Shown: in pieces, positions 8,403-43,093 of the stretch
Numbering within the stretch: the stretch's first letter is position 1
How the letters are laid out: each line of letters starts with the position of its first letter
Source of the DNA: Streptomyces californicus
Lineage (GTDB): Bacteria; Actinomycetota; Actinomycetes; Streptomycetales; Streptomycetaceae
DNA length: 64,000 nt
Assembly: GCF_000717645.1 (NCBI RefSeq)
Contig: NZ_JNZZ01000018.1
Span: forward strand, 83,671-147,670
Reading direction: 5' to 3'
Made by a program: the position numbers and the translations under genes
Notes under the pieces: model-generated
What the model was told of the DNA's origin: nothing
The model's input: the letters and a program-made list of their open reading frames with translations, nothing else
Databases searched by the model: none

Positions 8403-8426
8403 GCCGTACGCTCCCGGGGCCTCCGC

Positions 8427-8840: not shown

Positions 8841-8957
8841 CGCACTCACCTCTCCCGTCGACCGCCGTCATGATGTGACCTGCGTCTCAGTCTTCCACCG
8901 GCCACTGACAACGGCAGCGGCAAGAGCCGGCAGAAGCAGGGCGGCGGGCGCGCCCGG

Positions 8958-9848
8958 TCAGCCGAAGGTGTCGCACCGCGCCATGTCGCCCGTACGGAAC
9001 CCGGTGGAGAACCACCGCTGCCGCTGCGCCGCCGAGCCGTGCGTCCAGGACTCCGGCGTGACCCGGCCCTGGTACCGCTCCTGGATCCGGTCGTCGCCGA
9101 CCGCCGCCGCCGCGTCCAGGCCGTCCCTGATGTCCGCCCGGGTCAGCTCCGTGATCAGCGGCCGGCCCGTCGACTCGTCCGGCGTCGTCGTCGCGTGGTG
9201 CGCCCAGACCCCGGCGTAGCAGTCGGCCTGCAGCTCCACCTTCACCGCGTTGCTGTCCTCGCCCTGCCGCCCGTCCTGTGACCGGGCGAGCGTGCCCATC
9301 AGGTTCTGGACGTGGTGGCCGTACTCGTGCGCCACCACGTACGCCTGCGCGAACGGGCCGCCGCTGGAGCCGAACTTCGTCCGCAGGTCGTCGAAGAACC
9401 CGAGGTCCAGATAGACCCGGCGGTCTCCGGGGCAGTAGAACGGCCCGACCGCCGAGGTCGCCGACCCGCAGGCCGTGCCCACCCGCCCGCTGAACAGGAC
9501 CGTCCGCGCCCCCTCGTACTTCGCGCTCCGCCGCCGGAACTCCTGCCGCCAGAAGTCCTGCACGCTGTTGACGACGGCCACCGTCCGGCAGTCCTCCCGG
9601 CTGTTCGCGTCCTGCCCCTTCAGACAGCTCTCCTGCACCTGCCCCGCCGAGGAGGCCGTCGCCGCCGGGTCCGGCCCGTCCGAGGTGAGGCCGAGCTGGT
9701 CGGGGCCGACACCGAAGAGCAGGCCCAGGACCAGGGCGATCACCCCGGCGATCCCGCCGCCCACGGTGGCCCGCCCGCCCGGGATCCGGCTGCCGCGCAC
9801 GTCCTGGACCTCGGAGGTGTCCAGATCGGCGTCGTCGTCGAACTGCAC
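8958..9848 (-). CDS. Membrane-anchored neutral zinc metallopeptidase (YpfJ/KPN_02809 family)
   Basis: A 296-residue protein with a short cytosolic N-terminus, one transmembrane helix (about residues 32-50) and a secreted peptidase domain. The zinc motif HEYGHHVQNLMG (HExxH) and the downstream Glu in VELQADCYAGVWAHH define the neutral zinc metallopeptidase family. Cysteines in SCLKGQD, DCRTV, ACGSAT, FYCPGD, DCYAG and RCDTF suggest disulfides outside the membrane. It starts at a GTG with GAGGGTGG ahead. The physiological substrate is unknown. Confidence 0.9.
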   Translation of the reverse strand: MQFDDDADLDTSEVQDVRGSRIPGGRATVGGGIAGVIALVLGLLFGVGPDQLGLTSDGPDPAATASSAGQVQESCLKGQDANSREDCRTVAVVNSVQDFWRQEFRRRSAKYEGARTVLFSGRVGTACGSATSAVGPFYCPGDRRVYLDLGFFDDLRTKFGSSGGPFAQAYVVAHEYGHHVQNLMGTLARSQDGRQGEDSNAVKVELQADCYAGVWAHHATTTPDESTGRPLITELTRADIRDGLDAAAAVGDDRIQERYQGRVTPESWTHGSAAQRQRWFSTGFRTGDMARCDTFG

Positions 9849-9953
9849 GTCGCACCACCCTCGGGCTCGGGCGGGCGACGGCGTGCCGCCCTGCGCCGAG
9901 TATCGGACGGTTCGTCCCTCCGGGCACGCGGAAAAGCAGTTGCGCGCCGCCAG

Positions 9954-9959
9954 TAGAAT
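9954..9959 (+). promoter_or_regulatory. -10 box TAGAAT before the ABC-F leader ORF
   Basis: TAGAAT ends seven bases before the ATG of the short ORF at 9967, placing the transcript start at or within a base or two of that ATG. Confidence 0.6.
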
Positions 9960-9966
9960 GGGCCGT

Positions 9967-9990
9967 ATGGCCTTTCTCCTTGTGCATTAG
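9967..9990 (+). CDS. Candidate leader peptide MAFLLVH upstream of the ABC-F gene
   Basis: A seven-codon ORF (ATG to TAG) encodes the hydrophobic peptide MAFLLVH. It begins eight bases after the end of a -10 box, so it may be translated from a leaderless mRNA. The ABC-F start codon is 60 bases after its stop, with GC-rich complementary segments (CGGCG at 9991, CGCCG at 10022) between. Short hydrophobic leaders that sense ribosome stalling are known before antibiotic-responsive ABC-F genes (msrD, vmlR). Translation here is not proven. Confidence 0.45.
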   Translation: MAFLLVH

Positions 9991-10050
9991 CGGCGTCGAG
10001 AGACCTCCGCCCTCGTCCCTCCGCCGTCCATACTGCCCTGGAGTTTTTCC

Positions 10051-11649
10051 GTGATCACCGCTTCCGGCATCGAGCTGCGCGCCGGCGCCCGCATCCTCAT
10101 CGAGTCCGCCTCCTTCCGTATCGCCAAGGGCGACCGCATCGGCCTCGTCGGCCGCAACGGAGCGGGCAAGACCACCCTCACCAAGTGCCTCGCGGGCGAG
10201 GGCGCCCCCGCCGCCGGAACCATTACCAAGTCCGGCGAGGTGGGCTACCTCCCGCAGGACCCGCGCACCGGCGACCTCGACGTCCTCGCCCGGGACCGCA
10301 TCCTCTCCGCCCGCGGTCTCGACGAGATCCTGCGCAAGATGCACGAGAACGAGGACCGGATGGCGAACGGCAAGGGCGCCACCCGCGAGAAGGCGATGAA
10401 GAAGTACGAGCGCCTGGAGACCGAGTTCCTCACCAAGGGCGGATACGCCGCCGAGGCCGAGGCCGCCACCATCGCCGCCGCGCTCAACCTCCCCGACCGG
10501 GTCCTCGGACAGCCCCTGCACACCCTCTCCGGTGGTCAGCGCCGCCGCGTCGAGCTGGCCCGCATCCTCTTCTCGGACGCCGACACCCTCCTCCTCGACG
10601 AGCCGACCAACCACCTCGACGCCGACTCCATCGTCTGGCTGCGCGACTACCTCAAGTCCTACCGGGGCGGCTTCGTCGTGATCTCCCACGACGTCGACCT
10701 GGTCGAGACGGTCGTCAACAAGGTCTTCTACCTCGACGCCAACCGCTCCCAGATCGACATCTACAACATGGGCTGGAAGCTCTACCAGCAGCAGCGCGAG
10801 GCCGACGAGAAGCGCCGCAAGCGCGAGCGCCAGAACGCCGAGAAGAAGGCCGCCGCCCTCAACTCGCAGGCCGACAAGATGCGCGCCAAGGCCACCAAGA
10901 CCGTCGCCGCGCAGAACATGGCCAAGCGGGCCGACCGGCTGCTGGCCGGACTGGAGGCCGTCCGGGTCTCCGACAAGGTCGCCAAGCTCCGCTTCCCCGA
11001 GCCCGCGCCCTGCGGCAAGACCCCGCTGATGGCGGAGGGGCTCTCCAAGTCCTACGGCTCGCTGGAGATCTTCACCGACGTCGACCTCGCCATCGACAAG
11101 GGCTCCCGCGTCGTCATCCTCGGCCTCAACGGCGCCGGCAAGACCACGCTGCTGCGTCTGCTCGGCGGCGCGGAGAAGCCCGACACCGGCGAGATCATCC
11201 AGGGCCACGGCCTCAAGCTCGGCTACTACGCCCAGGAGCACGAGACCCTCGACCCGGAGCGCACGGTCCTGGAGAACATGCGCTCCGCAGCCCCCGACCT
11301 CGACCTCGTCGAGGTCCGCAAGACGCTCGGCTCCTTCCTCTTCTCCGGCGACGACGTCGACAAGCCCGCGGGCGTGCTCTCCGGCGGCGAGAAGACCCGG
11401 CTCGCCCTCGCGACCCTGGTCGTCTCCTCCGCCAACGTGCTCCTCCTCGACGAGCCGACGAACAACCTCGACCCCGCCAGCCGCGAGGAGATCCTCGGCG
11501 CGCTGCGCACCTACAAGGGCGCGGTCGTCCTCGTCACCCACGACGAGGGCGCGGTCGAGGCGCTCCAGCCGGAGCGGATCATCCTGCTCCCGGACGGCGT
11601 CGAGGACCTCTGGGGAGCGGACTACCGCGACCTCGTCGCCCTGGCCTGA
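10051..11649 (+). CDS. ABC-F family ATPase (ribosome-associated)
   Basis: A 532-residue soluble protein with two ABC cassettes and no membrane domain. Cassette 1 has GRNGAGKTT (about residues 34-42), LSGGQRRRVELA and LLLDEPTNHLD. Cassette 2 has GLNGAGKTT (about 358), LSGGEKTRLALA and LLLDEPTNNLD. The linker (about 235-310) is strongly basic and helical (EADEKRRKRERQNAEKKAAA), as in ABC-F proteins that enter the ribosomal E site. It is therefore probably a translation factor or a target-protecting resistance protein rather than a transporter. As I recall it, the same trio (ABC-F, tiny HTH protein, enoyl-CoA hydratase) occurs in mycobacteria around Rv1473. Start GTG with CTGGAG upstream. Confidence 0.92.
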   Translation: MITASGIELRAGARILIESASFRIAKGDRIGLVGRNGAGKTTLTKCLAGEGAPAAGTITKSGEVGYLPQDPRTGDLDVLARDRILSARGLDEILRKMHENEDRMANGKGATREKAMKKYERLETEFLTKGGYAAEAEAATIAAALNLPDRVLGQPLHTLSGGQRRRVELARILFSDADTLLLDEPTNHLDADSIVWLRDYLKSYRGGFVVISHDVDLVETVVNKVFYLDANRSQIDIYNMGWKLYQQQREADEKRRKRERQNAEKKAAALNSQADKMRAKATKTVAAQNMAKRADRLLAGLEAVRVSDKVAKLRFPEPAPCGKTPLMAEGLSKSYGSLEIFTDVDLAIDKGSRVVILGLNGAGKTTLLRLLGGAEKPDTGEIIQGHGLKLGYYAQEHETLDPERTVLENMRSAAPDLDLVEVRKTLGSFLFSGDDVDKPAGVLSGGEKTRLALATLVVSSANVLLLDEPTNNLDPASREEILGALRTYKGAVVLVTHDEGAVEALQPERIILLPDGVEDLWGADYRDLVALA

Positions 11650-12036
11650 TCCACGGAAACCGACCGCCCCCCGCCCCGGGGCGCGGGCCGGTCTGACCGC
11701 CCGGACGGAGCGTCCGATCTCCGGAGATGGATCATTCGGCCTACGAGTGGTCCGTCATCTGCGTGAGAACCTCTCGTACTCCGGTGGTGCGCCCGGCGCT
11801 CACCCGCCGCGCGCCCCCTCCGGGACGGCTTTTCCCCGTACGGCCCTGACCTGCCGGTTCTCCGGCGAGGCAGGGCCGTACCTTCGTGCGGGCCCTCTGG
11901 AATCGGGGATTCCGATCGTGTCGACGCCCTTCCCGTCCGGGAAACCGCGCGCACCGACCTTGCCGAATGGGTGGCCAGGAAGCGCGGGAGGGGTGATCAT
12001 GAGAGTCCAGAGCGCACTTCCCATGAGGAGGCACGG
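11650..12036. other. Intergenic region with palindromes upstream of gbn
   Basis: No gene is seen in these 387 bases. They hold a GC-rich inverted repeat just after the ABC-F stop (near 11670-11690), the perfect 12-base palindrome ATCTCCGGAGAT (11717-11728), and a hairpin with 11-bp arms (11838-11848 with 11871-11881) and an inner CCGG stem. GATC tetramers occur at 11716, 11730, 11914 and 11995, the last only 40 bases before the gbn start. Confidence 0.7.
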
Positions 12037-12258
12037 GTGGCCGAGACTCTGAAGAAGGGCAGCCGGGTGACCGGCGCCGCGCGTGACAAGCTCGCGGCAG
12101 ACCTGAAGAAGAAGTACGACTCCGGTGCGAGCATCAGGGCGCTGGCCGAGGAAACCGGCCGGTCCTACGGGTTCGTCCACCGGATGCTCAGCGAGTCCGG
12201 AGTCACGCTGCGAGGACGCGGCGGCGCGACACGGGGCAAGAAGGCCGCTTCGGCCTGA
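12037..12258 (+). CDS. gbn: Small GATC-binding nucleoid-associated-type HTH protein
   Basis: A 73-residue basic protein, starting VAETLKKGSRVTGAARDKLA and ending in a Lys/Arg/Gly tail. The middle (SGASIRALAEETGRSYGFVH) is a clear helix-turn-helix. By length, sequence and neighbours (ABC-F before, enoyl-CoA hydratase after) this is the Actinobacteria-specific protein described in S. coelicolor as Gbn (SCO1839), a nucleoid protein that prefers GATC and affects sporulation and antibiotics. GTG start with a full AGGAGG six bases ahead; the longer in-frame upstream extension lacks such a site. GATC sites in its own promoter region suggest autoregulation. Confidence 0.88.
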   Translation: MAETLKKGSRVTGAARDKLAADLKKKYDSGASIRALAEETGRSYGFVHRMLSESGVTLRGRGGATRGKKAASA

Positions 12259-12393
12259 GGCCACGGGTCTCCGACGTCTTCGGGCCCAACGGAATTCGGG
12301 GTGGCCACCCGGTCGGCCGCACGGTCGACCGGGTGGTTACTGTTCAGTCACTTAGATCCTTCGTGCTGACCGCACCCCATCCGGAGGCGCCCC

Positions 12394-13185
12394 ATGACCT
12401 CGCTCGACACTGTGCTCGACAAGGACGGCGTACGGCTCACCGTCGACGACGCCGTCGCCACGGTGACGCTCACCAACCCGGCCAAGCGCAACGCCCAGTC
12501 TCCCGCTCTGTGGCGGGCGTTGACGGAAGCCGGACGGGCGCTGCCCGGCACGGTGCGGGTCGTGGTGCTGCGCGGCGAGGGCAAGTCCTTCTCCGCCGGC
12601 CTCGACCGGCAGGCGTTCACGCCCGAGGGCTTCGACGGCGAGCCGTCGTTCCTCGACATGGCGCGCGGCCCCGAGGCCGACCTGGACGCCACCATCGCCG
12701 AGTACCAGGAGGCGTTCACCTGGTGGCGCCGCAACGACCTGGTGTCGATCGCGACGGTCCAGGGCCATGCCATCGGCGCCGGCTTCCAGCTCGCCCTCGC
12801 CTGTGACCTGCGCATCGTCGCCGAGGACGTGCAGTTCGCCATGCGCGAGACCAGCCTCGGCCTCGTTCCCGACCTCACGGGCACCCACCCCCTGGTGCAT
12901 CTCGTGGGGTACGCCCGCGCGCTGGAGATCTGCGCCACCGGCCGCTTCGTGCACGCGGAGGAGGCCGAGCGCACCGGTCTCGCCAACCTCGTCGTGGCCG
13001 GCGACCAGCTCGACGCGGCGGCCCGCGACCTGGCCGCCGCGCTGGTGGCGGCCCCCCGCGACGCCGTCGTCGAGACGAAGGCCCTGCTGGCCGGGGCGCT
13101 CTCGCGCGACTACGAGCAGCAGCGCGTCGCGGAGCGGGCCGCCCAGGGCCGCCGCCTGCGCGATCTGGCGGGCATCACCGACTAG
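12394..13185 (+). CDS. Enoyl-CoA hydratase/isomerase family protein
   Basis: A 263-residue crotonase-fold enzyme acting on acyl-CoA in the cytosol. It has NPAKRNAQSPALW at the CoA pocket, the first oxyanion loop at KSFSAGLDRQAF, and the second at GHAIGAGFQLALACDLRI. At the usual catalytic Glu positions I see RETSLGLVPDLTGTHPL. The first glutamate equivalent fits, while the second site carries Asp in PDLTG, so hydratase, isomerase or another crotonase reaction is possible. Strong GGAGG before the ATG. It follows gbn with a 135-base gap. Confidence 0.9.
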   Translation: MTSLDTVLDKDGVRLTVDDAVATVTLTNPAKRNAQSPALWRALTEAGRALPGTVRVVVLRGEGKSFSAGLDRQAFTPEGFDGEPSFLDMARGPEADLDATIAEYQEAFTWWRRNDLVSIATVQGHAIGAGFQLALACDLRIVAEDVQFAMRETSLGLVPDLTGTHPLVHLVGYARALEICATGRFVHAEEAERTGLANLVVAGDQLDAAARDLAAALVAAPRDAVVETKALLAGALSRDYEQQRVAERAAQGRRLRDLAGITD

Positions 13186-13263
13186 CGCGGTCGTCCGGCC
13201 GTTCGGCGCCGGACGATCCTCCGCCCCGGCCGCCGGACGCACGGTCCGGCGGCCGGTAGCGCG

Positions 13264-13415
13264 GGCGTACCGCTGAGCCTGGCGTACGTGCCGTCGACCC
13301 CGCGCGTGCCGCTGAACCCGGCGTACGTACCGCTGAACCCGGAGTACGTGCCGCCGACCTGGTGCGTGCCGCTGAACCCGGCATCCGTACCGCCCGCCCC
13401 GCGCGCACCGCTGGC
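13264..13415. repeat. Degenerate tandem repeats of 18 and 21 bases
   Basis: The core CCGCTGAACCCGG, preceded by GTAC-type triplets, recurs with CCG starts at 13270, 13291, 13309, 13330, 13351, 13369, 13390 and 13408. The spacings are 21, 18, 21, 21, 18, 21 and 18. All spacings are multiples of three. The array lies between the convergent enoyl-CoA hydratase and Asp23-like genes. Confidence 0.85.
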
Positions 13416-13424
13416 CGACGCGTC

Positions 13425-14198
13425 TCAGCCGCGGCGGCCGTCCCGGTCGCCGCTGGTGCCGGCGTCCCCCGGTGGCCCCACCACGTCCGTGACCAGCACC
13501 GACACCGGCAGTCGCCGGTCCAGGGCGGCGGTCACCGCCGAGTGCACCGACCGGGCGACCTCCCGCGCGCCGCGGTTCCCGTCCGTCGCCACCTCGACCC
13601 GTACGTGGTCCGCGGCCGTGTGCACGGGCGCGCCCAGGACCCGGGTGAGCGAGACGACGCCCGGCACCCCGGCGGCCGCCAACGCCACCGGACCGTCCGC
13701 CTCCGCGACCGGGACCGCCGGCCCGGCCCGCCCCGTCACCTGATCGGGCGCACCGTCCGTCAGCAATGCCGTCACCGTCAGGTCCACCTCGGTGATCTCC
13801 AGCCCCAGCCGGGCCGCGGCGGCGGTGAGGAGCGCCGTGCGCAGGGCCGCCGCCACGTCGGGCAGCGGCCGGTCCAGCGCGGCCGAGAACTCCGCCTCGA
13901 TCCGCAGCGGCACCGGCGGCAGCGCGCCCGGCGGAGCCGGTGCGGCCGCCGGGGCGCCGGGCGGGGACGCGGGCGGCGCGCCGCCCGCCATCGCCTCCTC
14001 CGCCGGACCGATCCGCAGCTTCCCCAGCACCGTTCCGGGGTGGGCCGCCGCCCCGCGCAGCACCGATGCGGCAGCCGTCTCCGCGATCCAGGACCCCTCC
14101 GCCGGAGCGCCCAGGGGCAGCAGTCTGCCCAGGCCGAGCCGTTCCCGTACCGCAGCGGTCCATCCGTCGGCCCTCTCCGGGCCCCGCGCCGTAGTCAT
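13425..14198 (-). CDS. Asp23-like/unknown protein divergent from the Asp23 cluster
   Basis: A 257-residue protein starting MTTARGPERADGWTAAVRER. A Pro/Ala/Gly linker (about residues 78-98) splits it into two halves. The C-terminal part (PVPLRIEAEFSAALDRPLPD and the later AADHVRVEVATDG with REVARSVHSAVTAAL) resembles the beta-alpha pattern of Asp23/Gls24 modules, so it may be a diverged member of the adjacent family. The ATG at 14198 has CAGGCT six bases upstream. It is transcribed away from the asp23 gene at 14307, sharing its promoter region, which suggests joint regulation. Confidence 0.75.
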   Translation of the reverse strand: MTTARGPERADGWTAAVRERLGLGRLLPLGAPAEGSWIAETAAASVLRGAAAHPGTVLGKLRIGPAEEAMAGGAPPASPPGAPAAAPAPPGALPPVPLRIEAEFSAALDRPLPDVAAALRTALLTAAAARLGLEITEVDLTVTALLTDGAPDQVTGRAGPAVPVAEADGPVALAAAGVPGVVSLTRVLGAPVHTAADHVRVEVATDGNRGAREVARSVHSAVTAALDRRLPVSVLVTDVVGPPGDAGTSGDRDGRRG

Positions 14199-31739: not shown

Positions 31740-33134
31740 TCACACGCCCGGGCTGACCGAGCTCATGTTGAAGTCCGGGACGCGCAGTGCCGGCATCGCC
31801 GCCCGGGTGAACCAGTCGCCCCACTCGCGCGGCAGCGTCCGCTCCGTACGCCCGGCCTCCGAGGCCCGCGACAGCAGGTCCACCGGCGACTCGTTGAACC
31901 GGAAGTTGTTCACCTCGCCGACGACCTCGCCGTCCTCGACCAGATACACGCCGTCCCGGGTCAGCCCGGTCAGCAGCAGCGTCGCCGGGTCCACCTCGCG
32001 GATGTACCAGAGGCAGGTCAGCAGCAGCGCCCGCCCGGTGGTCGCGGCGACCATCTCCTCCAGCGTCCGCTCGCCGCCGCCCTCCAGCAGCAGGTTGTCG
32101 ACGGCCGGGGCGACCGGGAGCCCGGTCAGCCCCGCCGAGTGCCGGGTCGTCGTCAGCCGTTCCAGCCTCCCCTCCCGGACCCAGTCCGTCGACGCCAGCG
32201 GCAGCCCGTTGTCGAAGACGGAGCCGCTGTCGCCGGAGGAGTGCGCGATCACGAACGGGGCCGACTCCAGGCCCGGCGCGTACGGATCGCTGCGCAGGGT
32301 GAGCGGCAGCGGCGAGAGCGTCTCGCCCAGCCGCGTGCCGCCGCCCGGCGTCGAGAACACCGTCCGGCCCTCCACCGCGTCCCGCGCGGTCGACGACCAG
32401 AACTGGTAGATCAGCAGATCCGCCACCGCGGTCGGCGGCAGCAGCGTCTCGTACCGCCCGGCGGGCAGCTCGACCCGCCGCTCCGCCCAGCGCAGCCGCC
32501 GCGCCAGCTCCGCGTCCATCGCCGCCGGGTCGACGTCCGTGAAGTCCCGGGTGGCGCGGCCCGCCCACGCGGAGCGCGTACGGTCCGGCGACTTCGCGTT
32601 CAGCTCCAGCGTCCCGTTCGGCTGGTCGTGGCGCAGCCGCAGCCCCGTGGACGTCCCCAGATAGGTGGAGGTCATCTCGTGATGGGCGAAGCCGTACAGC
32701 TCGCGCCCCCCGGACCGGGCGCGGGCGAAGGCGTCGCCGAGCGCCGGGGCGAAGCCCGCGAAGACCTCGGAGCCGGTCTCGGCGGGCGCGTCCGTGAAGT
32801 CGGGGGAGGAGGGCACCCCGCTCACCAGCGGCTGCGCGTCCTCCGCCGGGCCCGCGCCCCGGGCCGCCGCCTCGGCGGCCCGTACCAGCGGCTCCAGCTC
32901 CTCGGAGGTCACGGCGGACCGGGAGACGACGCCCGACGCCGTCCCCCGCGCCCCGTCCGCGGTCGCGACGACCGTGAGGGTACGGCCCCGGGTCACGCCG
33001 TTCGTGGTGAGCGCGTTGCCCGCCCAGCGCAGGTTGGCCGAGGACTGCTCGTCGGCGATGACCACCAGACCGTCCGTGGTGGACAGCTCCAGCGCCCGCT
33101 CGACGATCTCGTACGGCTTGCTGACGCGGCTCAT
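31740..33134 (-). CDS. tldE: TldE/PmbA family metallopeptidase-complex subunit
   Basis: A 464-residue protein of the TldE/PmbA family, the subunit that pairs with TldD to form a heterodimeric zinc protease. It starts MSRVSKPYEIVERALELSTT, and no HExxxH motif is present, as expected for the TldE partner. YIREVDPATLLLTGLTRDGV and VNNFRFNESPVDLL near the C-terminus are the usual PmbA motifs. The ATG overlaps the tldD stop (ATGA, 33131-33134). In other bacteria the complex trims modified peptides and processes antitoxins; no peptide precursor gene is seen beside it here. Confidence 0.92.
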   Translation of the reverse strand: MSRVSKPYEIVERALELSTTDGLVVIADEQSSANLRWAGNALTTNGVTRGRTLTVVATADGARGTASGVVSRSAVTSEELEPLVRAAEAAARGAGPAEDAQPLVSGVPSSPDFTDAPAETGSEVFAGFAPALGDAFARARSGGRELYGFAHHEMTSTYLGTSTGLRLRHDQPNGTLELNAKSPDRTRSAWAGRATRDFTDVDPAAMDAELARRLRWAERRVELPAGRYETLLPPTAVADLLIYQFWSSTARDAVEGRTVFSTPGGGTRLGETLSPLPLTLRSDPYAPGLESAPFVIAHSSGDSGSVFDNGLPLASTDWVREGRLERLTTTRHSAGLTGLPVAPAVDNLLLEGGGERTLEEMVAATTGRALLLTCLWYIREVDPATLLLTGLTRDGVYLVEDGEVVGEVNNFRFNESPVDLLSRASEAGRTERTLPREWGDWFTRAAMPALRVPDFNMSSVSPGV

Positions 33135-34654
33135 CGCCCGGCCTCCTGCGTCGTGTTGAGGATGTTGACGCCCCGGAAGAGGGCGGAGGGGCAGCCGTGC
33201 GAGACCGCCGCGACCTGGCTCGGCTGGGCCTTGCCGCAGTTGAACGCGCCACCGAGGACGTACGTCTGCGGCCCGCCCACCTTCTCCATCGAGCCCCAGA
33301 AGTCCGTGGTCGTCGCCTGGTACGCCACGTCGCGCAGCTGCCCGGCGAGCCTGCCGTTCTCGATGCGGAAGAACCGCTGCCCGGTGAACTGGAAGTTGTG
33401 GCGCTGCATGTCGATGGACCAGGACCGGTCGCCGACCACGTAGATCCCGCGCTCGACCCCGCCGATCAGGTCCTCCGTGGACAGTCCGCCCGGCTCCGGC
33501 CGCAGCGACACGTTCGCCATGCGCTGTACGGGGACGTGGCCCGGCGAGTCCGCGAACGCGCAGCCGTTGGAGCGTCCGAGCCCCGTCAGCTTCGCGATCC
33601 GGCGGTCCAGCTGGTAGCCGACGAGGGTGCCGTCCTTCACCAGGTCCCACGACTGCGCCTCGACGCCCTCGTCGTCGTACCCGATGGTCGCGAGCCCGTG
33701 CTCGGCGGTGCGGTCACCCGTCACGTTCATCACGGGGGAGCCGTAGACCAGCTTGCCGAGCTGGTCGAAGGTGGCGAACGAGGTCCCGGCGTACGCCGCC
33801 TCGTACCCCAGCGCCCGGTCCAGCTCGGTGGCGTGGCCGATGGACTCGTGGATGGTCAGCCACAGGTTCGACGGATCGACGACCAGGTCGTACGCCCCCG
33901 CCTCCACGCCCGGCGCGCGCATCTTCTCCGCGAGCAGCCCCGGGATCTGCTCCAGTTCGGCCTCCCAGTCCCAGCCGGTCCCGGTGAGGTACTCCCAGCC
34001 CCGGCCCACCGGCGGCGCGAGCGTCCGCATCGAGTCGAACTCGCCGGTCGCGCCGTCCACCGCGACGGCGGTCAACTGCGGGTGGACCCGCACCCGTTGC
34101 TGCGTGGTGACGGTCCCGGCCGTGTCCGCGTAGAACTTGTTCTCGTGCACGGCCATCAGGGACGCGTCCACATGCGCGACGCCCGCCGCGCCCAGCAGTC
34201 GTCCGCTCCACTCGGCGAGCAGCGCCGCCTTCTCCTCGTCCGGTACGGAGAAGGGGTCGACGTCGTACGCCGAGACCCAGGTCCGCTCGCCGTGCGACGG
34301 CTCGTCCGCCAGCTCCACCACCTCGTCCGAGCCGGCGGCCGCGATCACCTTCGCCGACAGCTTGGCCATCGCGACGGCCTGCGAGGCCACCTTCGCGGCC
34401 GCGTCCATCGTCAGGTCCACGCCCGAGGCGAACCCCCACGCCCCGCCGTGCACCACGCGCACCGCGTACCCGAGGTCCGTGCTGTCGGACGCCCCGGCCG
34501 GGCGGGCGTCCCGCAGCCGCCACGTGGCACCGCGCACCCGCTCCAGCCGGAAGTCGGCGTGCGTCGCGCCGAGCGCCCGCGCCCGCGCGAGCGCCGCGTC
34601 CGCCAGCGCGCGCGACGGCAGGGCCAGAAATGACTGATCTACCTCGTGGGGCAC
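33131..34654 (-). CDS. tldD: TldD family zinc metallopeptidase
   Basis: A 507-residue catalytic subunit. The zinc motif HESIGHATELD (HExxxH) lies in the middle after PSNLWLTI. The C-terminal segment QTYVLGGAFNCGKAQPSQVA contributes the conserved Cys-Gly metal site of the family. Start GTG at 34654, with GGGAA ahead and homologues beginning near PHEVDQSFL. It forms an operon with tldE by a four-base overlap. It is divergent from the large ATPase gene, whose start is 153 bases away. Confidence 0.93.
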   Translation of the reverse strand: MPHEVDQSFLALPSRALADAALARARALGATHADFRLERVRGATWRLRDARPAGASDSTDLGYAVRVVHGGAWGFASGVDLTMDAAAKVASQAVAMAKLSAKVIAAAGSDEVVELADEPSHGERTWVSAYDVDPFSVPDEEKAALLAEWSGRLLGAAGVAHVDASLMAVHENKFYADTAGTVTTQQRVRVHPQLTAVAVDGATGEFDSMRTLAPPVGRGWEYLTGTGWDWEAELEQIPGLLAEKMRAPGVEAGAYDLVVDPSNLWLTIHESIGHATELDRALGYEAAYAGTSFATFDQLGKLVYGSPVMNVTGDRTAEHGLATIGYDDEGVEAQSWDLVKDGTLVGYQLDRRIAKLTGLGRSNGCAFADSPGHVPVQRMANVSLRPEPGGLSTEDLIGGVERGIYVVGDRSWSIDMQRHNFQFTGQRFFRIENGRLAGQLRDVAYQATTTDFWGSMEKVGGPQTYVLGGAFNCGKAQPSQVAAVSHGCPSALFRGVNILNTTQEAGR

Positions 34655-34807
34655 AGGGAGTTCCCTTCTCGAACCATCACGGCAGTGAACCACGCCTCCG
34701 GGCGGCGGCACCGGGCCCGGTCGCGCGCGCGACCGGAACCTGACCTTCCGTCACGCGTTCCGCCGACTCCGTGGACCCCGGCCGCGACACGGTGAGAGGA
34801 TCCCCGT

Positions 34808-37800
34808 ATGCACGGGTGGGCGGTGGGACTGAAAGCCTGGCTCTCGTCCTTGAACGAGGCGGATCTGCGTACGCTCCTGGCGCGGCACCACTGCCTTCGC
34901 CACGGAAAGTGCGTGCACGGCGCCGCACGACCCGGGCGTCAGGCGCCGACCCGCCGCGATCTGCGCGCCGTGCGGGTGTGGCTGGCCAAGGCCCGGCACC
35001 CCGGACTGCAGGGGATGGCGGCCTGCGGCCTGGCCTGGTCGGTCCAGACCCTGGTGCGGGAGCACGGCTATCCGCCCGGGACCGTGGACGAGCCCACCGA
35101 CGAGCAGCTCGAGGAGATGCTCGCCGTGCTGGAGCCGCCCCTCGCACACTGGGCGCTGTACGCGCTGCTCTGCCCCGAGGCGCACGGCCTGCCCGCGGCC
35201 GGACAGGCCCACCGGCACGAACGGCGTCTGAGGGCGGCGGCGGACCGCTTGCCGCCCGATGTTCCCTCCCGGCCTCCGGGGGTCCCTGGGCCCAGCGGCG
35301 GAGTGACCGGACGAGTTCTTCCCGAAGCGCCCCGGAGTTCCGGGCCGGAGATTGAGGTAGTCGCCCCGATGGAGAGGACCGGGCCCGTCGAGGCCGCGCA
35401 GGACATGCTGGCGGAGCTGCAGAGTTCGGGCCGGCGGCTGGCGGACGCCCTGCGCGCGTCGGCCGCCGCGGTCGAGGCCGGAAGCGTGCCGCCGGACGGT
35501 GTCGCCGACGCGCTGATCCGGTGGACGGACGACCGGGGGAGGGCCGCCGAGAGCCTGGGCGCGGAAGGCTGCCCGTGGCCGGAGGACGACGGATACGAGG
35601 TGGCCGAGTCGGCGCTCGCCCGTCTGCGCGGCGCCCGGAAGGAGCAGGCCGACGCGCTCCTGCGCAAGGCGGCGACGTACGCCCAGCTGCTGGAGATGGC
35701 GGACGAGGGGGAGGAGGCCGACGATCTCCGACGCCATCTGCAGCGCATCCGGAAGCAGTTGGAGCAGTACGGCGATGTGACCGGCGCCGCGGCGCGGGAG
35801 GCTCCGCCCACGGCCCCGGAGGCGGACGCCGAAGCGGGGGCCGACGCCGACGCGGGAACCCCGGCGGCGGAGACCGAGCCGCCTGCCCGGACCCGCCCCG
35901 AGGTGACCGACCCGGACGTGACCGACCCGGACGCGGCCGAGCCGGAAGCGGTCGCTCCGGACGTGACCGACCCGGACGAGGCGCGCGGAGAAGCCGAAGC
36001 GCCTCCGGCCTCCCGCCCGGAGGACGAGAGGGACGAGAAGGAGGCGCGGGGGGACGTGAACGAGGAGGGGGCGCCCGAACCGCCTCCGGCCTCCGTTCCG
36101 GAGCGGCCCGAGCCCGCACCGCGCGACGTGGTCGGGCCGGGGGCGGGGCACACGGCCGCACCGCACTCCGCGCGGGAGCACCCGGCGGTGCTCCCGCAGC
36201 GACTCGCCCCGTCGGACGAGGAGGCGTGGCCCGAGGGCGTCGATCGTCCCGACTGGGACCCGCGGGCGCCCTGGGACACCGGGACGGTCTCCCCCGTCGT
36301 GCGTCTGCTGGCGGAGAGCCGGGTGGCGGAGGCGTACTGGATGACCGTCGCCTCCGACGAGCGCCCCGTGCGCGCCAGGGCCCTCGCCTTCGCCGCCGCC
36401 GCGTTCGGCTGCGTGTCCGACGCCGAGGCCACCCCCGTGCAGATCGCCCACGAGTTCGAGCCCGGGCTGGCGGCGGAGGACCGCGAGGCGCACCTCGTCG
36501 CGCTGGCCGCCGCGCTCCGTACCGGTGTGACCGCCCGTTGGCCGCACGTCCTGATCAGCGGGTTCGTCTCCCCGGCCGGTCTCACCGGACCCTGGCAGCA
36601 CCTCCTCGACGTGCTGGTCTCCGCCGTACGCGACGGGAGGGTCTTCGAGCCGGGCATGGTGCAGGCCGACGAGGGGCGGCTGGAGGCCGACGCCCGCGAC
36701 GAGATCGGCCGCACCGCCCGCCGGCTCCTTGACGACCTGCCGCGCCGCAAGATGAAGTACCAGCGCGCTTCCCAGGTCCTTCAGCACCTGGTGGGCCCGT
36801 CCGGACGGCTCCGCCAGGCGCTGAACCGAGTCATCGAGTGGTCGGAGGGCGATCAGGGGCCCAGGACCGGCGGATTCCGCGTCCTCGGGGAGGAGCTCTG
36901 GCGCCCCGAGGACATCGACCGCCTCATCCAGGACACCGACGCCCTGTTCCGTACCTCCAAGCAGGCGAAGGAACCGATAACCGCCGGGGCGCTCCGACAG
37001 CTCCACAGCGCGTGCCGCTCCGTCGGCGAGGTCATGATGCGGGCCGAGGCAGCCGCCGCGGCGAACCGCCCCCAGCCCGGGGCCAACGAGCGGGGCATCC
37101 CCGAACTGGTCTCGGTGGTGCGGGACCTGGCGGACCACCCCGAGCCGACCGGAGTGGGCGGCGCGGCCCTCGGACTGCTGCGCAGATGGCTGGCCGGCGA
37201 ACCCGTCCCGTCGGCGGAGAGCGCCGAGCGCATCCGGGACGACGGGGGCCCCGTTCCGGCCGCCGACTGCCTGCTGGGCCTGCCGGACCTGCCCCGCGGG
37301 CCCGACGGCGAACCCGAGCTCGACGACCCGCGTACGGCCCGTCGGATGGCGGCGCTCCTCGCGCCCGTGGACGCGGAATCGGCCCTCGGCCGCTACCTGG
37401 AGAGCGGCGACCTCCACCTGGCCGGCGCGCTCGTCGCCGTCGCCGAGCGCGAACCGGCCGCCTTCGGCACCGGTCCGGAGTGGACCGAGGCGGCCCAGCA
37501 CCGCCTGACCCAGGGGCACGAGGACTGGCGCCGCAAGGTCGGCTCCCACCACCGCGCCGCCGCCGGACTGCTCGCCCAGATGCGGACGCTCAACCAGTTG
37601 GCGCCCGACCGGGAGCGCGAGTTCGCCGGCCGCCTCCAGGAGTTCGCCGACGGCGAGGAGACGGGGCGTTACCGCTACGCCCTGGAGGCGCTGGAGGCAC
37701 TGGAGGGGGAGCTGTCCTCCCTGGTGGACGAGGCCACCCGCGTCCTCCGCCAGGACCTGGCCCAGCTTCGCCGCGACCCCGACCACCCGATGGACCCGGT

Positions 37801-40660
37801 CGACCACGACCGCATCGCCCGCCTCATCGACGAGGGCGACACGGTCACCGCACAGGAGTTCCTCGCGCTCGCGTCGAGCCACCAGCCCCTGCCCGAGCGC
37901 ATCGCGGACGAGGGAGACGAACTGGCGGGCTTCCTCGACGGCGTGGTCTCCCCCGACGCACCCCGCGCCGGGGGAGAGGGCGTCGAGGCCCACTGGTGGG
38001 CCCGGCGGTACAGCGACCCCAGCGCCTCCCTCACCCAGGCGGCCCGCGCCGGACTCGACTCCTGGCGGGCCCTGTGCACCAGACAGGGGCGCAGCAGCGA
38101 GTGGCAGCAGCATCTGCCCCGGGTCCTGAGACTGCTCGGGCTCGAACTCTCCGGGAGCCAGCTCCACACCGACCGGGCCGCCCTCGGCCAGGGGATGCGT
38201 CGCTTCAAGGTGCGGGCGAACGTCGCCGAAAGGGTCGGCTACGTCGCGGCACTCGGCTCGCGCGCCACGTCGTACACGATCCTGCTGGTCTGGGAGGAGC
38301 AGCCCGCCGACGGGCCGCTCGCCCACGTGGAGGACGCCGACGTGGGAGCCAACATCGTCCTCTACCTCCACCCCCTCGGCGCCGACGGGCGGCGCGGCCT
38401 CGCGGAGTCGGCCCGTTCCTTCGCCCAGCAGGCCCTCGTCGTCGACTCCGCCGTCATGGGCTGGATGGCCGCGCGCGCCCCCGGCGCCTTCCGGTCCCTC
38501 CAGCGCGTGACCCTGCCCTGGGCGGCGTACAACCCCTACACCCCGTTCGTCGCCGGCCTGGTGCCGCCGGAGGTCTTCTACGGACGCGACGACGAGATGC
38601 GCGAAGTCATGGGGCGCGAGGGCGGGATGTTCCTCTACGGCGGCCGCCAGCTCGGCAAGTCCGCGCTGCTGCGCCGGGTCGCGGAGATCTTCCCCAGCCG
38701 GGCCGACACCCATGTCGCCGTCTACCTGGACCTGCTCAAGGCTGAGATCGGCCACGCGGAGGCTCCGGAGCGGATCTGGAGCAGGCTGGTGGAGGACCTC
38801 AAACGCAAGGGGGTCTTCAACAACAAGATGTCCGAGCAGGCGAGCCCCGAAGTGGTGGTGAAGAACCTCCGCACCTGGCTCGACGAGGACGACACCCGGC
38901 GCGTCCTTGTCCTCGCGGACGAGGCGGACGCCTTCCTCAACACCGACTCCCGGCGCGCCTTCCGGCTCGGCAGCGAGTCGACCTTTCCCAACGTCATGCT
39001 GTTCCAGCGGCTCATGGAACAGACGGAACGCCGGTTCAAGATCGTGTTCGCCGGTCTGCACCAGGTGCAGCGGTTCGGCCACCTCTCCAACGTCTCCACC
39101 GTGCACGGCGGCCCCGACGTGCTGGTCGGCCCCCTGGGGCAGCAGGCCGCCATCCGGCTGGTCACCGAACCGATGGCCGCCCTGGGCTACACGTTCGAGC
39201 GGGCCGAACTGGTCTGGCGGATCCTCGCCATCACCAACTACCAGGCCAACCTCGTGCAGATCTTCTGCCGCGAGCTGGTGCGCGCCCTGCACTCCCGCCC
39301 CTACGCGTTCTCCGACGGCACCGTCCCCATCACCGAGGACGACGTGCAGAAGGTCGCCGCCTCGGAGACCGTACGACGGCAGATCGCCGAGCGGCTCCGC
39401 TTCACGATCAACCTGGAGGACCGCTACCGGGTCCTCGCCCTGGTGATCGCCCTGCGAAGCCTCAAGGACGGCTACCGGGGCGACTACACGGCCAGTGCCC
39501 TGCTGCAGGAGGCCCGCGAGGCGTGGCCGCAGGGCTTCGAGATGCTGAGCGCCAAGCAGGCCCAGATCTTCCTGACCGAGATGGTCGGCCTCGGCCTGCT
39601 CATCCAGCTCGGTGACCGGTCCCGCTTCGCGGTGCGCAGCCCCAACGTCGTCAACATGCTCGGCACGCGCGAGGAGCTCGAACTCGAACTCAAGGAGACC
39701 GAGTTCGGGCTGCCCTACGACTACAACCCCCGGGCCGCGCGACGGGTCCTGGGACGGGACCGGCACAGCGTGCAGCGCTACAGCCCGCTCACCGAGGAGC
39801 AACTGCACGACACCGCCCAGCCGGGCGTGAGCGTCATCGGCACCACCGACCTCTTCCGGCCGGAGCTGGTGCGGCAGGCGGTCGCCGCCTTCGCCGAGAA
39901 CCGGGGCGTGGAAGTGCTCAAGCACGAGCGGGGCGGAGACCTGCAGGCCCTGGTCAAACAGCGCCGGCGCAAGGCGCATCTCCTCATCGCCGACCTCCGC
40001 GGAAGCAGCGCGGGCGAGCTGCGCACCGCGGTCCAGGTGCTGCTCAACCACGCCGGTCCGGCCTCGGACGACCTCGTCAGGCAGGCCGCGCGGCGCACCA
40101 GCAGCACCGCGAACCGCTCCGCCGTCGTCGTGGCCGACGCGACGACCGTCGCCGAGTTGGAGGCGGCCGCGGGGGAGGAGCTCTCCGTCAGGCGCCTGCG
40201 GCCCGAACGCTGGACGGCCGACGCGCTGCGCGCCTGGTCCGAGTGCCCCTTCGTATCCCGTGAGGACCGGAGCCGACTGGTCGCGGCCACCGGCGGCTGG
40301 CCGCACTGGATGGAGGCGGCGGTGACGGACGTGTCGGTGCACGGCGCCACGCTCGTCCAGGCGGTCGAACGGATCCGCGCCGTGATCAACCGGCCGGCCA
40401 ACACGGAACTGCACCTGCGCCGGGCCGGTCTGGACGCCGGGGACCTGAGCCTGCTCACCGCGTGGACCGGCTACGTCGAGGAGGGCCAGGGCGCTCCCCT
40501 CGACGACGTCCAGGCCGCGATCGAGCGCGACGAACAGGACACCGACGCGTGGCTGACCCGCCTGGAGCGGCTCGGCCTCCTCGACAGCACGGACCACGGC
40601 TTCGCCGTGGAACCGGTGACCTACCGCGCGGTGCGCGCGAGCGCCGCCGGGGAGCGGTGA
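34808..40660 (+). CDS. Giant P-loop (AAA/STAND-like) ATPase of an undescribed two-gene module
   Basis: A 1950-residue cytosolic protein that I cannot place in a named family. Residues 1-300 are helical, with a CLRHGKC Cys pair at 29-35. About 320-465 form an acidic Pro/Asp/Glu linker with VTDPD repeats. About 470-1230 are Ala/Leu-rich helices, probably a sensor or scaffold array. The NTPase core follows FYGRDDEMREVM: Walker A GGRQLGKS (1278-1285), Walker B VLVLADEADAFL (Asp1371, Glu1372), and a sensor-like FKIVFAGLHQVQRFG. About 1560-1950 hold winged-helix-like segments and a DUF-like end. ATG with GAGAGG upstream. One base separates its TGA from the next ATG, so the two proteins are coupled. 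The architecture recalls STAND-type NTPases of conflict or defence systems; function is inferred only. Confidence 0.88.
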   Translation: MHGWAVGLKAWLSSLNEADLRTLLARHHCLRHGKCVHGAARPGRQAPTRRDLRAVRVWLAKARHPGLQGMAACGLAWSVQTLVREHGYPPGTVDEPTDEQLEEMLAVLEPPLAHWALYALLCPEAHGLPAAGQAHRHERRLRAAADRLPPDVPSRPPGVPGPSGGVTGRVLPEAPRSSGPEIEVVAPMERTGPVEAAQDMLAELQSSGRRLADALRASAAAVEAGSVPPDGVADALIRWTDDRGRAAESLGAEGCPWPEDDGYEVAESALARLRGARKEQADALLRKAATYAQLLEMADEGEEADDLRRHLQRIRKQLEQYGDVTGAAAREAPPTAPEADAEAGADADAGTPAAETEPPARTRPEVTDPDVTDPDAAEPEAVAPDVTDPDEARGEAEAPPASRPEDERDEKEARGDVNEEGAPEPPPASVPERPEPAPRDVVGPGAGHTAAPHSAREHPAVLPQRLAPSDEEAWPEGVDRPDWDPRAPWDTGTVSPVVRLLAESRVAEAYWMTVASDERPVRARALAFAAAAFGCVSDAEATPVQIAHEFEPGLAAEDREAHLVALAAALRTGVTARWPHVLISGFVSPAGLTGPWQHLLDVLVSAVRDGRVFEPGMVQADEGRLEADARDEIGRTARRLLDDLPRRKMKYQRASQVLQHLVGPSGRLRQALNRVIEWSEGDQGPRTGGFRVLGEELWRPEDIDRLIQDTDALFRTSKQAKEPITAGALRQLHSACRSVGEVMMRAEAAAAANRPQPGANERGIPELVSVVRDLADHPEPTGVGGAALGLLRRWLAGEPVPSAESAERIRDDGGPVPAADCLLGLPDLPRGPDGEPELDDPRTARRMAALLAPVDAESALGRYLESGDLHLAGALVAVAEREPAAFGTGPEWTEAAQHRLTQGHEDWRRKVGSHHRAAAGLLAQMRTLNQLAPDREREFAGRLQEFADGEETGRYRYALEALEALEGELSSLVDEATRVLRQDLAQLRRDPDHPMDPVDHDRIARLIDEGDTVTAQEFLALASSHQPLPERIADEGDELAGFLDGVVSPDAPRAGGEGVEAHWWARRYSDPSASLTQAARAGLDSWRALCTRQGRSSEWQQHLPRVLRLLGLELSGSQLHTDRAALGQGMRRFKVRANVAERVGYVAALGSRATSYTILLVWEEQPADGPLAHVEDADVGANIVLYLHPLGADGRRGLAESARSFAQQALVVDSAVMGWMAARAPGAFRSLQRVTLPWAAYNPYTPFVAGLVPPEVFYGRDDEMREVMGREGGMFLYGGRQLGKSALLRRVAEIFPSRADTHVAVYLDLLKAEIGHAEAPERIWSRLVEDLKRKGVFNNKMSEQASPEVVVKNLRTWLDEDDTRRVLVLADEADAFLNTDSRRAFRLGSESTFPNVMLFQRLMEQTERRFKIVFAGLHQVQRFGHLSNVSTVHGGPDVLVGPLGQQAAIRLVTEPMAALGYTFERAELVWRILAITNYQANLVQIFCRELVRALHSRPYAFSDGTVPITEDDVQKVAASETVRRQIAERLRFTINLEDRYRVLALVIALRSLKDGYRGDYTASALLQEAREAWPQGFEMLSAKQAQIFLTEMVGLGLLIQLGDRSRFAVRSPNVVNMLGTREELELELKETEFGLPYDYNPRAARRVLGRDRHSVQRYSPLTEEQLHDTAQPGVSVIGTTDLFRPELVRQAVAAFAENRGVEVLKHERGGDLQALVKQRRRKAHLLIADLRGSSAGELRTAVQVLLNHAGPASDDLVRQAARRTSSTANRSAVVVADATTVAELEAAAGEELSVRRLRPERWTADALRAWSECPFVSREDRSRLVAATGGWPHWMEAAVTDVSVHGATLVQAVERIRAVINRPANTELHLRRAGLDAGDLSLLTAWTGYVEEGQGAPLDDVQAAIERDEQDTDAWLTRLERLGLLDSTDHGFAVEPVTYRAVRASAAGER

Positions 40661-40661
40661 G

Positions 40662-42173
40662 ATGGCGGACGAGCCGGCGGGGCCGCCCGCCCTGGCCGAC
40701 CTCCCCGGCGCGCGCGGACAGGTGCGCGGGGTGACGGAGACCCTGCGCACCGGCCTGCACAGCGTCTGGCTGCTGCCCGACCGGCTGGTGGCCACGGGGC
40801 AGGCCGACGAGCTGTATCTGCGGGCCCTGTCCGGCACTCGACGGCACATCGACGTGCCCCCGACCGGGGACGCCGAGCTCCCGCCGCCCGCCGAGGGGGC
40901 CGCGAGCCACCCGTCGTGGGACGCCGGGTACGGGCCCGACACCGACCAGCTCCCCTATCTCGACCAGTACGACGACGGCTTCGACCTCGGCTGGGAAGGG
41001 GACGGGTACGCCCCCGCGATCCCCGCTCCCCGGTCCGGTGGGAGCGGCACGCCCCTCCCGCAGCGCGACCTGGCGGCACGGATCGCCAAGGAACTCTCCG
41101 CCCCGGCCGACGACGTCGCCGGCTGGCTCACGTTCCCGGACGACGGGACGCCCCCGCCCGTGATCGGCATACGCGCCTGGGCCGAACCGGACGGCGGGCC
41201 GGTGCGCGGGGCCGGCATCGAGGGGCTGCACCGCTCGCTGTCGGCGGCGGTCAGGGCGGCCGGCCTGCCTCCGGGGGAGCGGCCCAGACTGTTCGTCGTG
41301 GCCCGGCTGCGCGATCTGCCCGAGGGGCTGCCGGACGAACTGCACCAGGACTCGGGGGCGACGGCCGTCCACTGGTGGTGGGACGCGCTGGGGCGGCTGG
41401 ACGTCTCGACCGCCGTCGCGTCCTGCCTGGCCGCCGCGCGCACGGCGGGCCAGGACGGCGACTCGTCGGGGGAGCGCGTGCGGCGCCAGCTCACGGCGGA
41501 GACCGTGGTCGAGATCTGCGGGCCGGACCTGGAGCTGGCGCGCGGACTCGCCCTCGGCTGGGACGGACAGCAGCGCACCCTCGACGCCGCCCTCCGGCGA
41601 TGTCTCGCCGCCGGCCCGCCCGTGACCGGCGGCACCGCCGAGGCGCCCGCCCGGATGGGGGCCCGGCGCCGCCCCGGAACCGATGTCCGCGAAGCGTGGT
41701 CGGGAGGAGCCATCGCCGCCTGGGAGGGACGGCTGCGCCCGCATCCGGGCACCTGGTACCCCGTCGGCCCGGCCGCGGAACTGACCGGGGACGCCCGGGC
41801 CCGGCTGGCCGCGTTGATCGCGCAGGCCCAGCAGCGGGTGGTGCTCCCGTGGATCGAGGAGGCGCGGCAACGGCTGGCCGTACGCTCCCTGAGCCACCTC
41901 AAGCGCCCGGTCGAGAGCGTCGTCGAGGACTACATCGAGCGCCCCGCCCTCCATCTGCGCGACCGACCCGAACGGGCCTTCCTCGAAATCCAGGTGGGGG
42001 AACTGCTCCACGCCCACCGCCAGGGCGCGGTCGCGCTGCCCGGCCACGAGGCACAGCTCCTGAGACTCCTGGTCAAGGTGCGCAACATCCTGTCCCACCG
42101 GTCCGTGCTGCACGACGCCACCCTCAAGGAGTTCCGCGACGAGCTGTCCCGGTCGGACCTGCGCACTTCCTGA
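40662..42173 (+). CDS. Partner protein with C-terminal HEPN-like RNxxxH motif
   Basis: A 503-residue protein translated in step with the giant ATPase (TGA, one base, ATG). Residues 1-75 contain a hydrophobic strand pattern (SVWLLPDRLVATGQADELYL). A Pro/Gly/Asp/Tyr-rich linker covers about 75-130. The middle (about 130-300) alternates strands and helices, with no catalytic motif I know. The C-terminal 110 residues are helical and end LVKVRNILSHRSVLHDATLK. Arg474-Asn475-x3-His479 matches the HEPN ribonuclease motif (R-polar-x3-H), as does its place on a late helix. It may be the effector that the ATPase controls. This is inference from one motif and operon structure. Confidence 0.82.
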   Translation: MADEPAGPPALADLPGARGQVRGVTETLRTGLHSVWLLPDRLVATGQADELYLRALSGTRRHIDVPPTGDAELPPPAEGAASHPSWDAGYGPDTDQLPYLDQYDDGFDLGWEGDGYAPAIPAPRSGGSGTPLPQRDLAARIAKELSAPADDVAGWLTFPDDGTPPPVIGIRAWAEPDGGPVRGAGIEGLHRSLSAAVRAAGLPPGERPRLFVVARLRDLPEGLPDELHQDSGATAVHWWWDALGRLDVSTAVASCLAAARTAGQDGDSSGERVRRQLTAETVVEICGPDLELARGLALGWDGQQRTLDAALRRCLAAGPPVTGGTAEAPARMGARRRPGTDVREAWSGGAIAAWEGRLRPHPGTWYPVGPAAELTGDARARLAALIAQAQQRVVLPWIEEARQRLAVRSLSHLKRPVESVVEDYIERPALHLRDRPERAFLEIQVGELLHAHRQGAVALPGHEAQLLRLLVKVRNILSHRSVLHDATLKEFRDELSRSDLRTS

Positions 42174-42373: not shown

Positions 42374-43093
42374 ATGAGCCGCTCGGTTCTCGTCACCGGA
42401 GGAAACCGGGGCATCGGCCTCGCCATCGCCCGCGCCTTCGCCGACAACGGCGACCAGGTCGCGATCACCTACCGCTCCGGAGAGCCCCCTCAGATCCTCA
42501 CCGACGCCGGTGTCCTCGCGGTCCGCTGCGACATCACGGACGCCGAGCAGGTGGAGCAGGCATACAAGGAGATCGAGGAGAAGCACGGTCCCGTCGAGGT
42601 GCTGGTCGCCAACGCCGGCATCACCAAGGACCAGTTGCTGATGCGGATGTCGGAGGACGATTTCACCTCCGTCGTCGACACCAACCTCACCGGCACCTTC
42701 CGGGTCGTCAAGCGCGCCAACCGCGGCATGCTGCGCGCCAAGAAGGGCCGCGTCGTCCTGATCTCCTCCGTCGTCGGACTCCTCGGCTCGGCCGGGCAGG
42801 CCAACTACGCCGCCTCCAAGGCCGGTCTCGTCGGCTTCGCCCGGTCGCTGGCCCGCGAACTCGGCTCGCGGAACATCACCTTCAACGTCGTCGCCCCCGG
42901 TTTTGTCGACACCGACATGACCCAGGTGCTCACCGAGGAGCAGCGCAAGGGCATCGTCGCCCAGGTGCCGCTCGGCCGTTACGCGCGGCCCGAGGAGATC
43001 GCCGCCGCGGTGCGCTTCCTCGCCTCCGACGACGCGTCGTACATCACTGGAGCCGTCATTCCCGTTGACGGCGGATTGGGCATGGGTCACTGA
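42374..43093 (+). CDS. fabG: 3-oxoacyl-[ACP] reductase FabG
   Basis: This enzyme reduces beta-ketoacyl-ACP with NADPH in the elongation cycle of fatty acid synthesis. The 239-residue SDR has TGGNRGIGLAIARAF at the nucleotide site, VANAGITKDQLLMRM, the catalytic Ser in VVLISSVVGLLG and Tyr-x3-Lys as YAASKAGLVGFAR, and the end VDGGLGMGH. AAGGA precedes the ATG. The enoyl reductase gene begins five bases after its stop, the conserved actinobacterial fabG-inhA pair. Confidence 0.96.
   Translation: MSRSVLVTGGNRGIGLAIARAFADNGDQVAITYRSGEPPQILTDAGVLAVRCDITDAEQVEQAYKEIEEKHGPVEVLVANAGITKDQLLMRMSEDDFTSVVDTNLTGTFRVVKRANRGMLRAKKGRVVLISSVVGLLGSAGQANYAASKAGLVGFARSLARELGSRNITFNVVAPGFVDTDMTQVLTEEQRKGIVAQVPLGRYARPEEIAAAVRFLASDDASYITGAVIPVDGGLGMGH

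Follow-up and report, generated by a model that had tools for sequence, protein, structure and literature searches.

The 64,000-nucleotide stretch analyzed here (the window; Streptomyces californicus, contig NZ_JNZZ01000018.1, positions 83,671–147,670) contains two codirectional genes, P0001 and P0002, that code for a giant ATPase and a smaller partner. The pair is probably (we put this at about 0.6) an accessory two-protein antiphage conflict system, in which an ATP-gated complex of a STAND and an inactive STAND protein would unleash a HEPN RNase. The computed features behind this reading are the genes and their operon layout, the ATPase motifs, the partner fold lacking Walker A, the HEPN motif, recurrent pairing, patchy presence, and some antiviral links. 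A preliminary description of this DNA had proposed a large sensor-like NTPase with a nuclease-like effector, as in conflict systems; the intact ATPase, the HEPN motif, the pairing, and the antiviral links support such a layout, as far as sequences and models suggest.

The gene pair and its domains

The pair is confirmed as real, and more than a chance arrangement, by database homologues, conserved motifs, and confident structure models. Both open reading frames have the sizes given previously, and the 1-bp gap is verified by the codons: the TGA stop of P0001 occupies 40658–40660, and the ATG of P0002 is at 40662. The main features are as follows.

34808..40660, + strand: P0001, gene of the ATPase, STAND/ORC-Cdc6-type, 1950 amino acids (Pfam AAA_22, E 9.7e-6, 26.4 bits against a cut-off of 27)
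34808..36262, + strand: P0001 residues 1–485, fastest-evolving N-terminal part (identity to the relative G139)
36263..38137, + strand: residues 486–1110, mostly helical in the modelled part 751–1110 (structure model)
38141..38515, + strand: residues 1112–1236, alpha/beta domain with a conserved GS motif, preceding the ATPase (structure model)
38573..39307, + strand: residues about 1256–1500, STAND ATPase domain (Pfam, structure model, fold matches)
38639..38662, + strand: residues 1278–1285, Walker A, GGRQLGKS
38903..38938, + strand: residues 1366–1377, Walker B, VLVLADEADAFL
39308..39802, + strand: residues 1501–1665, very conserved post-ATPase region, helical with two strands (model; identities)
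39803..40657, + strand: residues 1666–1950, C-terminal alpha/beta plus helical domain (model secondary structure)
40662..42173, + strand: P0002, gene of the partner, 503 amino acids (open reading frame, motif, structure model)
40662..41771, + strand: P0002 residues 1–370, P-loop/ORC-like fold without Walker A (inactive STAND)
41787..42161, + strand: residues 376–500, helical HEPN-like domain (structure model; HEPN_Swt1 matches)
42081..42098, + strand: residues 474–479, RNILSH, predicted HEPN catalytic motif Rx4H

By its model, P0001 is an AAA+ protein of ORC/STAND type with intact Walker A and Walker B, both located exactly where they had been placed; the structure prediction suggested earlier as a check returned this NTPase fold. 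The Walker A Lys is found in 82 of 82 loci, a count that leans in favor of conservation, as the motif served as one of two patterns in each locus-finding scan; Asp of Walker B is retained in 82 of 82 loci and Glu in 81 (Gln in L076). The locus rows of alignment A4 were chosen by the Walker A pattern, so conservation in that column of A4 carries no weight, and the columns were read separately in the 82 loci. The domain limits differ from those of the earlier outline: the acidic, Pro-rich stretch lies at about 331–485, and the alpha/beta domain 1112–1236 stands before the ATPase.

Three sub-regions of residues 1–485 show 68% (over 31 residues), 75%, and 45% identity to the close relative G139, as opposed to 96–98% in the core, and most of residues 1–190 is missing from G139. 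Region 1501–1665 is 98% identical to G139 and 60–64% identical to the approximately 50% clade; from its model, we infer a lid or winged-helix-like fold. Structural matches, including 2v1u and 1w5t, extend to model residue 882, as found in a search with the whole model rather than with 1501–1665 alone. The C-terminal domain 1666–1950 may possibly be a second, inactive P-loop domain. Kinship of the partner's inactive STAND domain with either the active or the C-terminal domain of the ATPase was considered and dropped, given no support from hhalign.

The N-terminal part of P0002 is, judging by the model, an inactive STAND domain with a P-loop/ORC-like fold and a lost Walker A; GxxxxGK[ST] occurs in none of 56 partner homologues. 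The RNxxxH motif noticed earlier near the C-terminus is RNILSH. Its Arg and His are kept in all 54 readable partners (of 56), a count that leans toward conservation, as 49 of 53 training partners were chosen with the R-x4-H pattern; database homologues of the partner (P-series), chosen without the motif, likewise keep both residues. The C-terminal helices of P0002 are modelled at high predicted local distance difference test values, and the protein is a probable RNA-cutting enzyme, namely, a predicted HEPN endoribonuclease.

Protein databases contain 56 homologues of the partner and 753 of the ATPase, and a 1951-residue database protein is 100% identical to P0001 over the searched part; a later search produced 51 matches, the named ones all from Streptomyces, and added nothing. 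In Pfam, P0001 has only sub-threshold ATPase matches (e.g., AAA_22), and P0002 has no match at E ≤ 1; NCBIfam gives no useful match to either protein. A delta-aminolevulinate dehydratase match to P0002 (E 0.002) was not reproduced with a profile and is ascribed to chance; ferritin and apolipoprotein profile matches were taken as chance helical likeness. The partner model finds nothing in BFVD at E ≤ 0.001. The C-terminal part of the Agrobacterium partner (L024:14304-15893), past the HEPN motif, matches AAA_33 weakly (0.00054, residues 394–487) and is possibly kinase-like.

Pairing across bacteria

A GTDB scan with two patterns, Walker A among them, gave at least 462 confirmed ATPase stretches; the best 80 were kept as loci, with genes called as longest open reading frames, and two loci from viral contigs (L107, L108) were kept apart. 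By their titles, the loci come from cyanobacteria, Acidobacteria, Proteobacteria, Planctomycetes, Verrucomicrobia, Bacteroidetes, Bacillota, Chloroflexi, Gemmatimonadota, Myxococcales, Actinobacteria, and other groups; many of the sources are metagenome-assembled genomes, and their taxon labels may err. The ATPase core is also present in 24 of 72,556 plasmid records and in two viral contigs, and in none of 50,697 phage records. In two other phyla, a match is present in 8 genomes of 398 in one and in 13 of 244 in the other (centre genomes counted); most of these are weak, shorter relatives that represent another kind of ATPase.

The neighbourhood survey recommended in the preliminary description shows that, among the best 80 of at least 462, 56 of the 70 judgeable loci have the partner close by (10 loci being too short). 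In 52 of these 56, the open frame of the partner starts from 600 nucleotides before to 150 nucleotides after the ATPase stop; other offsets are seen in L057, L060, L074, and L087. Distance matrices of ATPase and partner correlate with r 0.77 over 37 loci (the window, 34 GTDB loci, and two viral contigs), and none of 2000 permutations is as high, as expected if the two proteins work together, although this Mantel test leaves the shared host history in.

Six loci of a second survey (L200–L204, L207) were rejected as members of the pair family, having different ATPases and no motif-bearing same-strand gene directly after them; in L205, a HEPN partner accompanies a giant ATPase that is truncated. 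In L206, a transposase-like gene (by eye; 9754-10635) stands in the place expected for the HEPN partner. In L165 (genome G015, about 7163-13531), no single open frame covers both the N-terminal and the C-terminal part of the ATPase, and the gene may be broken or misassembled. The pair is also found on plasmid p1 of Streptomyces fungicidicus (L021), where the partner motif reads ARNILSH; ~5 kb upstream is a 1273-residue protein labelled sigma-70 family, and downstream labels are VWA, AAA, and DUF5682.

Fusions and neighbours in relatives

One antiviral link among the relatives is seen in Azospirillum oryzae (L019:4693-14463), where a 3256-residue protein combines pPIWI_RE X, MID, and RNaseH domains with a C-terminal ATPase. 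This fusion lies inside a pPIWI_RE island, adjoined by the Y-REase gene and the Z gene, and is directly followed by a homologue of the partner (E 3.1e-58) that is extended at its C-terminus and whose motif, by eye, keeps R and H and not N. Viral contig L108 likewise has a pPIWI_RE–ATPase fusion followed by the partner, and in 7 of the 24 plasmid records the gene at the match is labelled RNaseH domain-containing, one of them domain-checked. In a Bacteroidetes metagenome-assembled genome (L027:2321-5631), a partial ATPase and a HEPN gene are followed on the same strand by a 704-residue Argonaute (PADLOC pAgo, E 3.2e-163).

A complete sigma-70 factor, with regions 1.2, 2, 3, and 4, is fused N-terminally to the ATPase in 10 of 68 scanned N-termini; by the motif check, these are the cyanobacterial loci L028:5318-12511, L029, L033–L036, L038–L040, and L082. 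At 10 cyanobacterial loci, nine of them sigma-fused by the same check, the ATPase has a PLD-SNF2 helicase gene next to it. The HEPN partner is found in none of the eight sigma-fused loci, out of ten in all, that have enough downstream sequence.

Helicases with DEAD and/or Helicase_C domains stand next to or near some members. Three of them, in L062, L094, and L206, also carry the MZB (MrfA) domain; those of L094 and L206 directly abut the start of the ATPase, and that of L062 is 1 kb off. We take this domain set to be the YprA family. According to the available text of PMC12458937, that family is central to DISARM, Dpd, and Druantia. The Agrobacterium pair is preceded by a WYL gene and followed by ThiF and patatin genes. 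In total, the neighbour scan (A8) covered 105 of 110 neighbour genes, five being left out for size; generic kinase and helicase PADLOC matches (PD-T4-6, MkoA, mad6) were not counted as defence.

A fixed site and patchy presence in Streptomyces

The site of the pair is framed by the following genes.

33131..34711, − strand: tldD-like gene (longest open reading frame), left flank; the name is that of the preliminary description
42374..43093, + strand: fabG, right flank, followed by fabI

Of the neighbours listed there as tldD/tyrS and fabG/fabI, the tldD-like gene upstream and fabG/fabI downstream are borne out. The ATPase family is present in 35 of 295 Streptomyces genomes and absent from 260, which runs counter to a homologue at one place in every Streptomyces; six genomes, that of the window included, form a close clade at ≥68% identity, and in all six the pair lies between the tldD-like gene and fabG. 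The same locus was also compared in related strains, as had been advised, using the 30 best-matching loci from 60 genomes with a fabG match. In 25 of them the site is empty, no more than about 700 bp separating the tldD-like gene from fabG, three have the pair (one being the window), and two are not tellable, in agreement with the accessory status proposed for the pair. In the tier of ~43–53% identity, all seven genomes inspected have the pair at other places. The partner is evolving faster than the flanking genes: compared with G139, it is 81% identical, versus 95% for tldD and 96% for fabG. The third-position GC content of the pair resembles that of the flanking genes.

Interpretation

The giant ATPase would act as an ATP-driven switch of STAND/ORC type, its fast-evolving N-terminal half probably sensing an invader cue. 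The partner would be coupled to it via the inactive STAND domain, with the HEPN endoribonuclease kept in check at rest. Upon sensing, the ATP-bound ATPase and the inactive STAND domain of the partner would assemble into a mixed complex in an ATP-dependent manner; the HEPN domains, brought together, would then cleave RNA, and phage growth would stop, probably via dormancy or death of the infected cell. Here we infer the assembly of the complex, the cue, the RNA target, and the anti-phage role. A similar logic is proposed for the nSTAND2 pair in the available text of Kaur et al. 2021 (PMC8195603).

Several observations weigh against this reading. Neither window protein is covered by any PADLOC or PHROGs model, and the window copy is flanked by housekeeping genes, outside any defence island. 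Since the close clade keeps a single chromosomal site, its history resembles ancient inheritance followed by losses more than recent movement. The HEPN-like assignment rests on the motif and the helical fold: structural matches of the partner do not reach the HEPN part, and HEPN_Swt1 is matched at E ≤ 0.05 by 7 of 65 partner members (best 0.0063). No partner is seen in 14 of the 70 judgeable loci (≥1300 nucleotides downstream). The neighbour scan had no control set, many loci lacked antiviral company, and of the PADLOC matches of neighbours the Argonaute and PLD-SNF2 ones alone were examined further. The leaning motif counts and the host history in the Mantel test belong here as well.

The same data could be read as direct restriction rather than suicide, with the ATPase loading on or scanning invader nucleic acid, in the manner of ORC, TnsC, or BrxC, and steering an attached nuclease (HEPN, pPIWI_RE, Argonaute, or PLD-SNF2) to foreign RNA or DNA. 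The fold matches include BrxC as well as ORC and TnsC proteins that bind DNA, and the identified partners and fusions are mostly nucleic-acid enzymes; however, the commonest partner is HEPN-like, and we regard this mode of action as unlikely. HEPN domains are usually RNases of suicide-type systems, according to the available text of PMC3710099. Tight gene coupling, the HEPN-like domain, and the plasmid-borne ATPase relatives would also suit a module of toxin–antitoxin type, where a HEPN toxin is silenced by the giant ATPase and the main role is maintenance of a plasmid or region. Yet an antitoxin of 1950 residues that has an intact ATPase would stand well apart from the known toxin–antitoxin pairs, and the close clade keeps the pair at its single chromosomal site, making such a role distinctly improbable. 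A housekeeping or developmental RNA-processing complex of Streptomyces, with no invader role, would agree with the fixed tldD–fabG site and with the flank-like third-position GC content; it is a very improbable explanation in view of the many Streptomyces genomes without the pair, the empty sites, the fast evolution of the N-terminus and the partner, and the antiviral company of relatives elsewhere.

As a conflict system, the pair looks widespread and little studied, since the same pair is sporadic across many groups and in several cases stands beside, or is fused to, antiviral proteins. A broader and more tentative idea is that the ATPase might be a general nucleic-acid-sensing hub with pluggable killers (most commonly HEPN RNase, also PIWI/Argonaute and PLD-SNF2), where the sigma-70 fusion of filamentous cyanobacteria would guard or reprogram the host RNA polymerase while a phage takes over; such a hub would then form a new, deep-branching class of immune switches in many phyla. 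Being sporadic in many phyla, with no match in PADLOC or NCBIfam and no Pfam family above the cut-off, the pair is a testable candidate for a new antiviral machine. The pPIWI_RE fusion offers a handle on the proteins with which pPIWI_RE works, and the sigma-70 fusion, on whether bacterial immunity senses transcription takeover.

Comparison with known systems

In the open-licence literature (partly from 2015 on), we found no account of how widely the two genes are paired, of the constant site and its empty alleles, of the links to pPIWI_RE and Argonaute, or of the sigma-70 fusion. Avs and other STAND antiphage proteins, as well as NLRs, combine a STAND ATPase switch with an effector, and EfAvs5 and plant NLRs are among the structural matches; in the window pair, however, a second protein carries the effector, together with an inactive STAND-like domain of its own, and the variable part is N-terminal. 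The three-gene pPIWI_RE island, as described in the available text of PMC3702460, is shared by one relative, the Azospirillum ATPase fused to pPIWI_RE inside such an island, whereas the window pair has no pPIWI_RE domain by Pfam or PADLOC; the words "ATPase" and "AAA" are absent from the main text of that 2013 paper, in the version available.

DUF499/Hma (BR type 1) also combine HEPN with an ORC-type ATPase, but with HEPN on the ATPase N-terminus and with methyltransferase and helicase genes alongside (PMC12839542, available text); P0001 has no DUF499 match in Pfam. In BREX, where BrxB is an inactive STAND protein, the ATPase of BrxC is N-terminal (same source), and the window pair has neither PglZ nor PglX beside it, its immediate flanks being the tldD-like gene and fabG/fabI, nor a PADLOC match.

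The closest described system, compared by description rather than by sequence, appears to be nSTAND2, a predicted two-gene counter-invader system (Kaur et al., 2021; PMC8195603, available text here and below). Both are two-gene operons whose products have STAND cores; in one of the two products the NTP-binding motifs are degraded and an effector is fused to the core. In nSTAND2, the effector is most often GT4 or HEPN; the window pair has the HEPN form of this layout, an active STAND and an inactive STAND fused to HEPN, and no GT4 was noticed on partners, though no search with a GT4 model was made. The text mentions no giant N-terminus and no sigma-70, pPIWI_RE, or Argonaute links, in which the present family differs. 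The nSTAND2 family is placed near CR-ATPases, Dap3, and RNA12; its pair is proposed to form a toroidal hetero-multimer, and inactive STANDs are proposed to bind nucleic acid. The kind of system seen in the window, an active STAND and an inactive STAND–HEPN encoded by two genes, has already been predicted.

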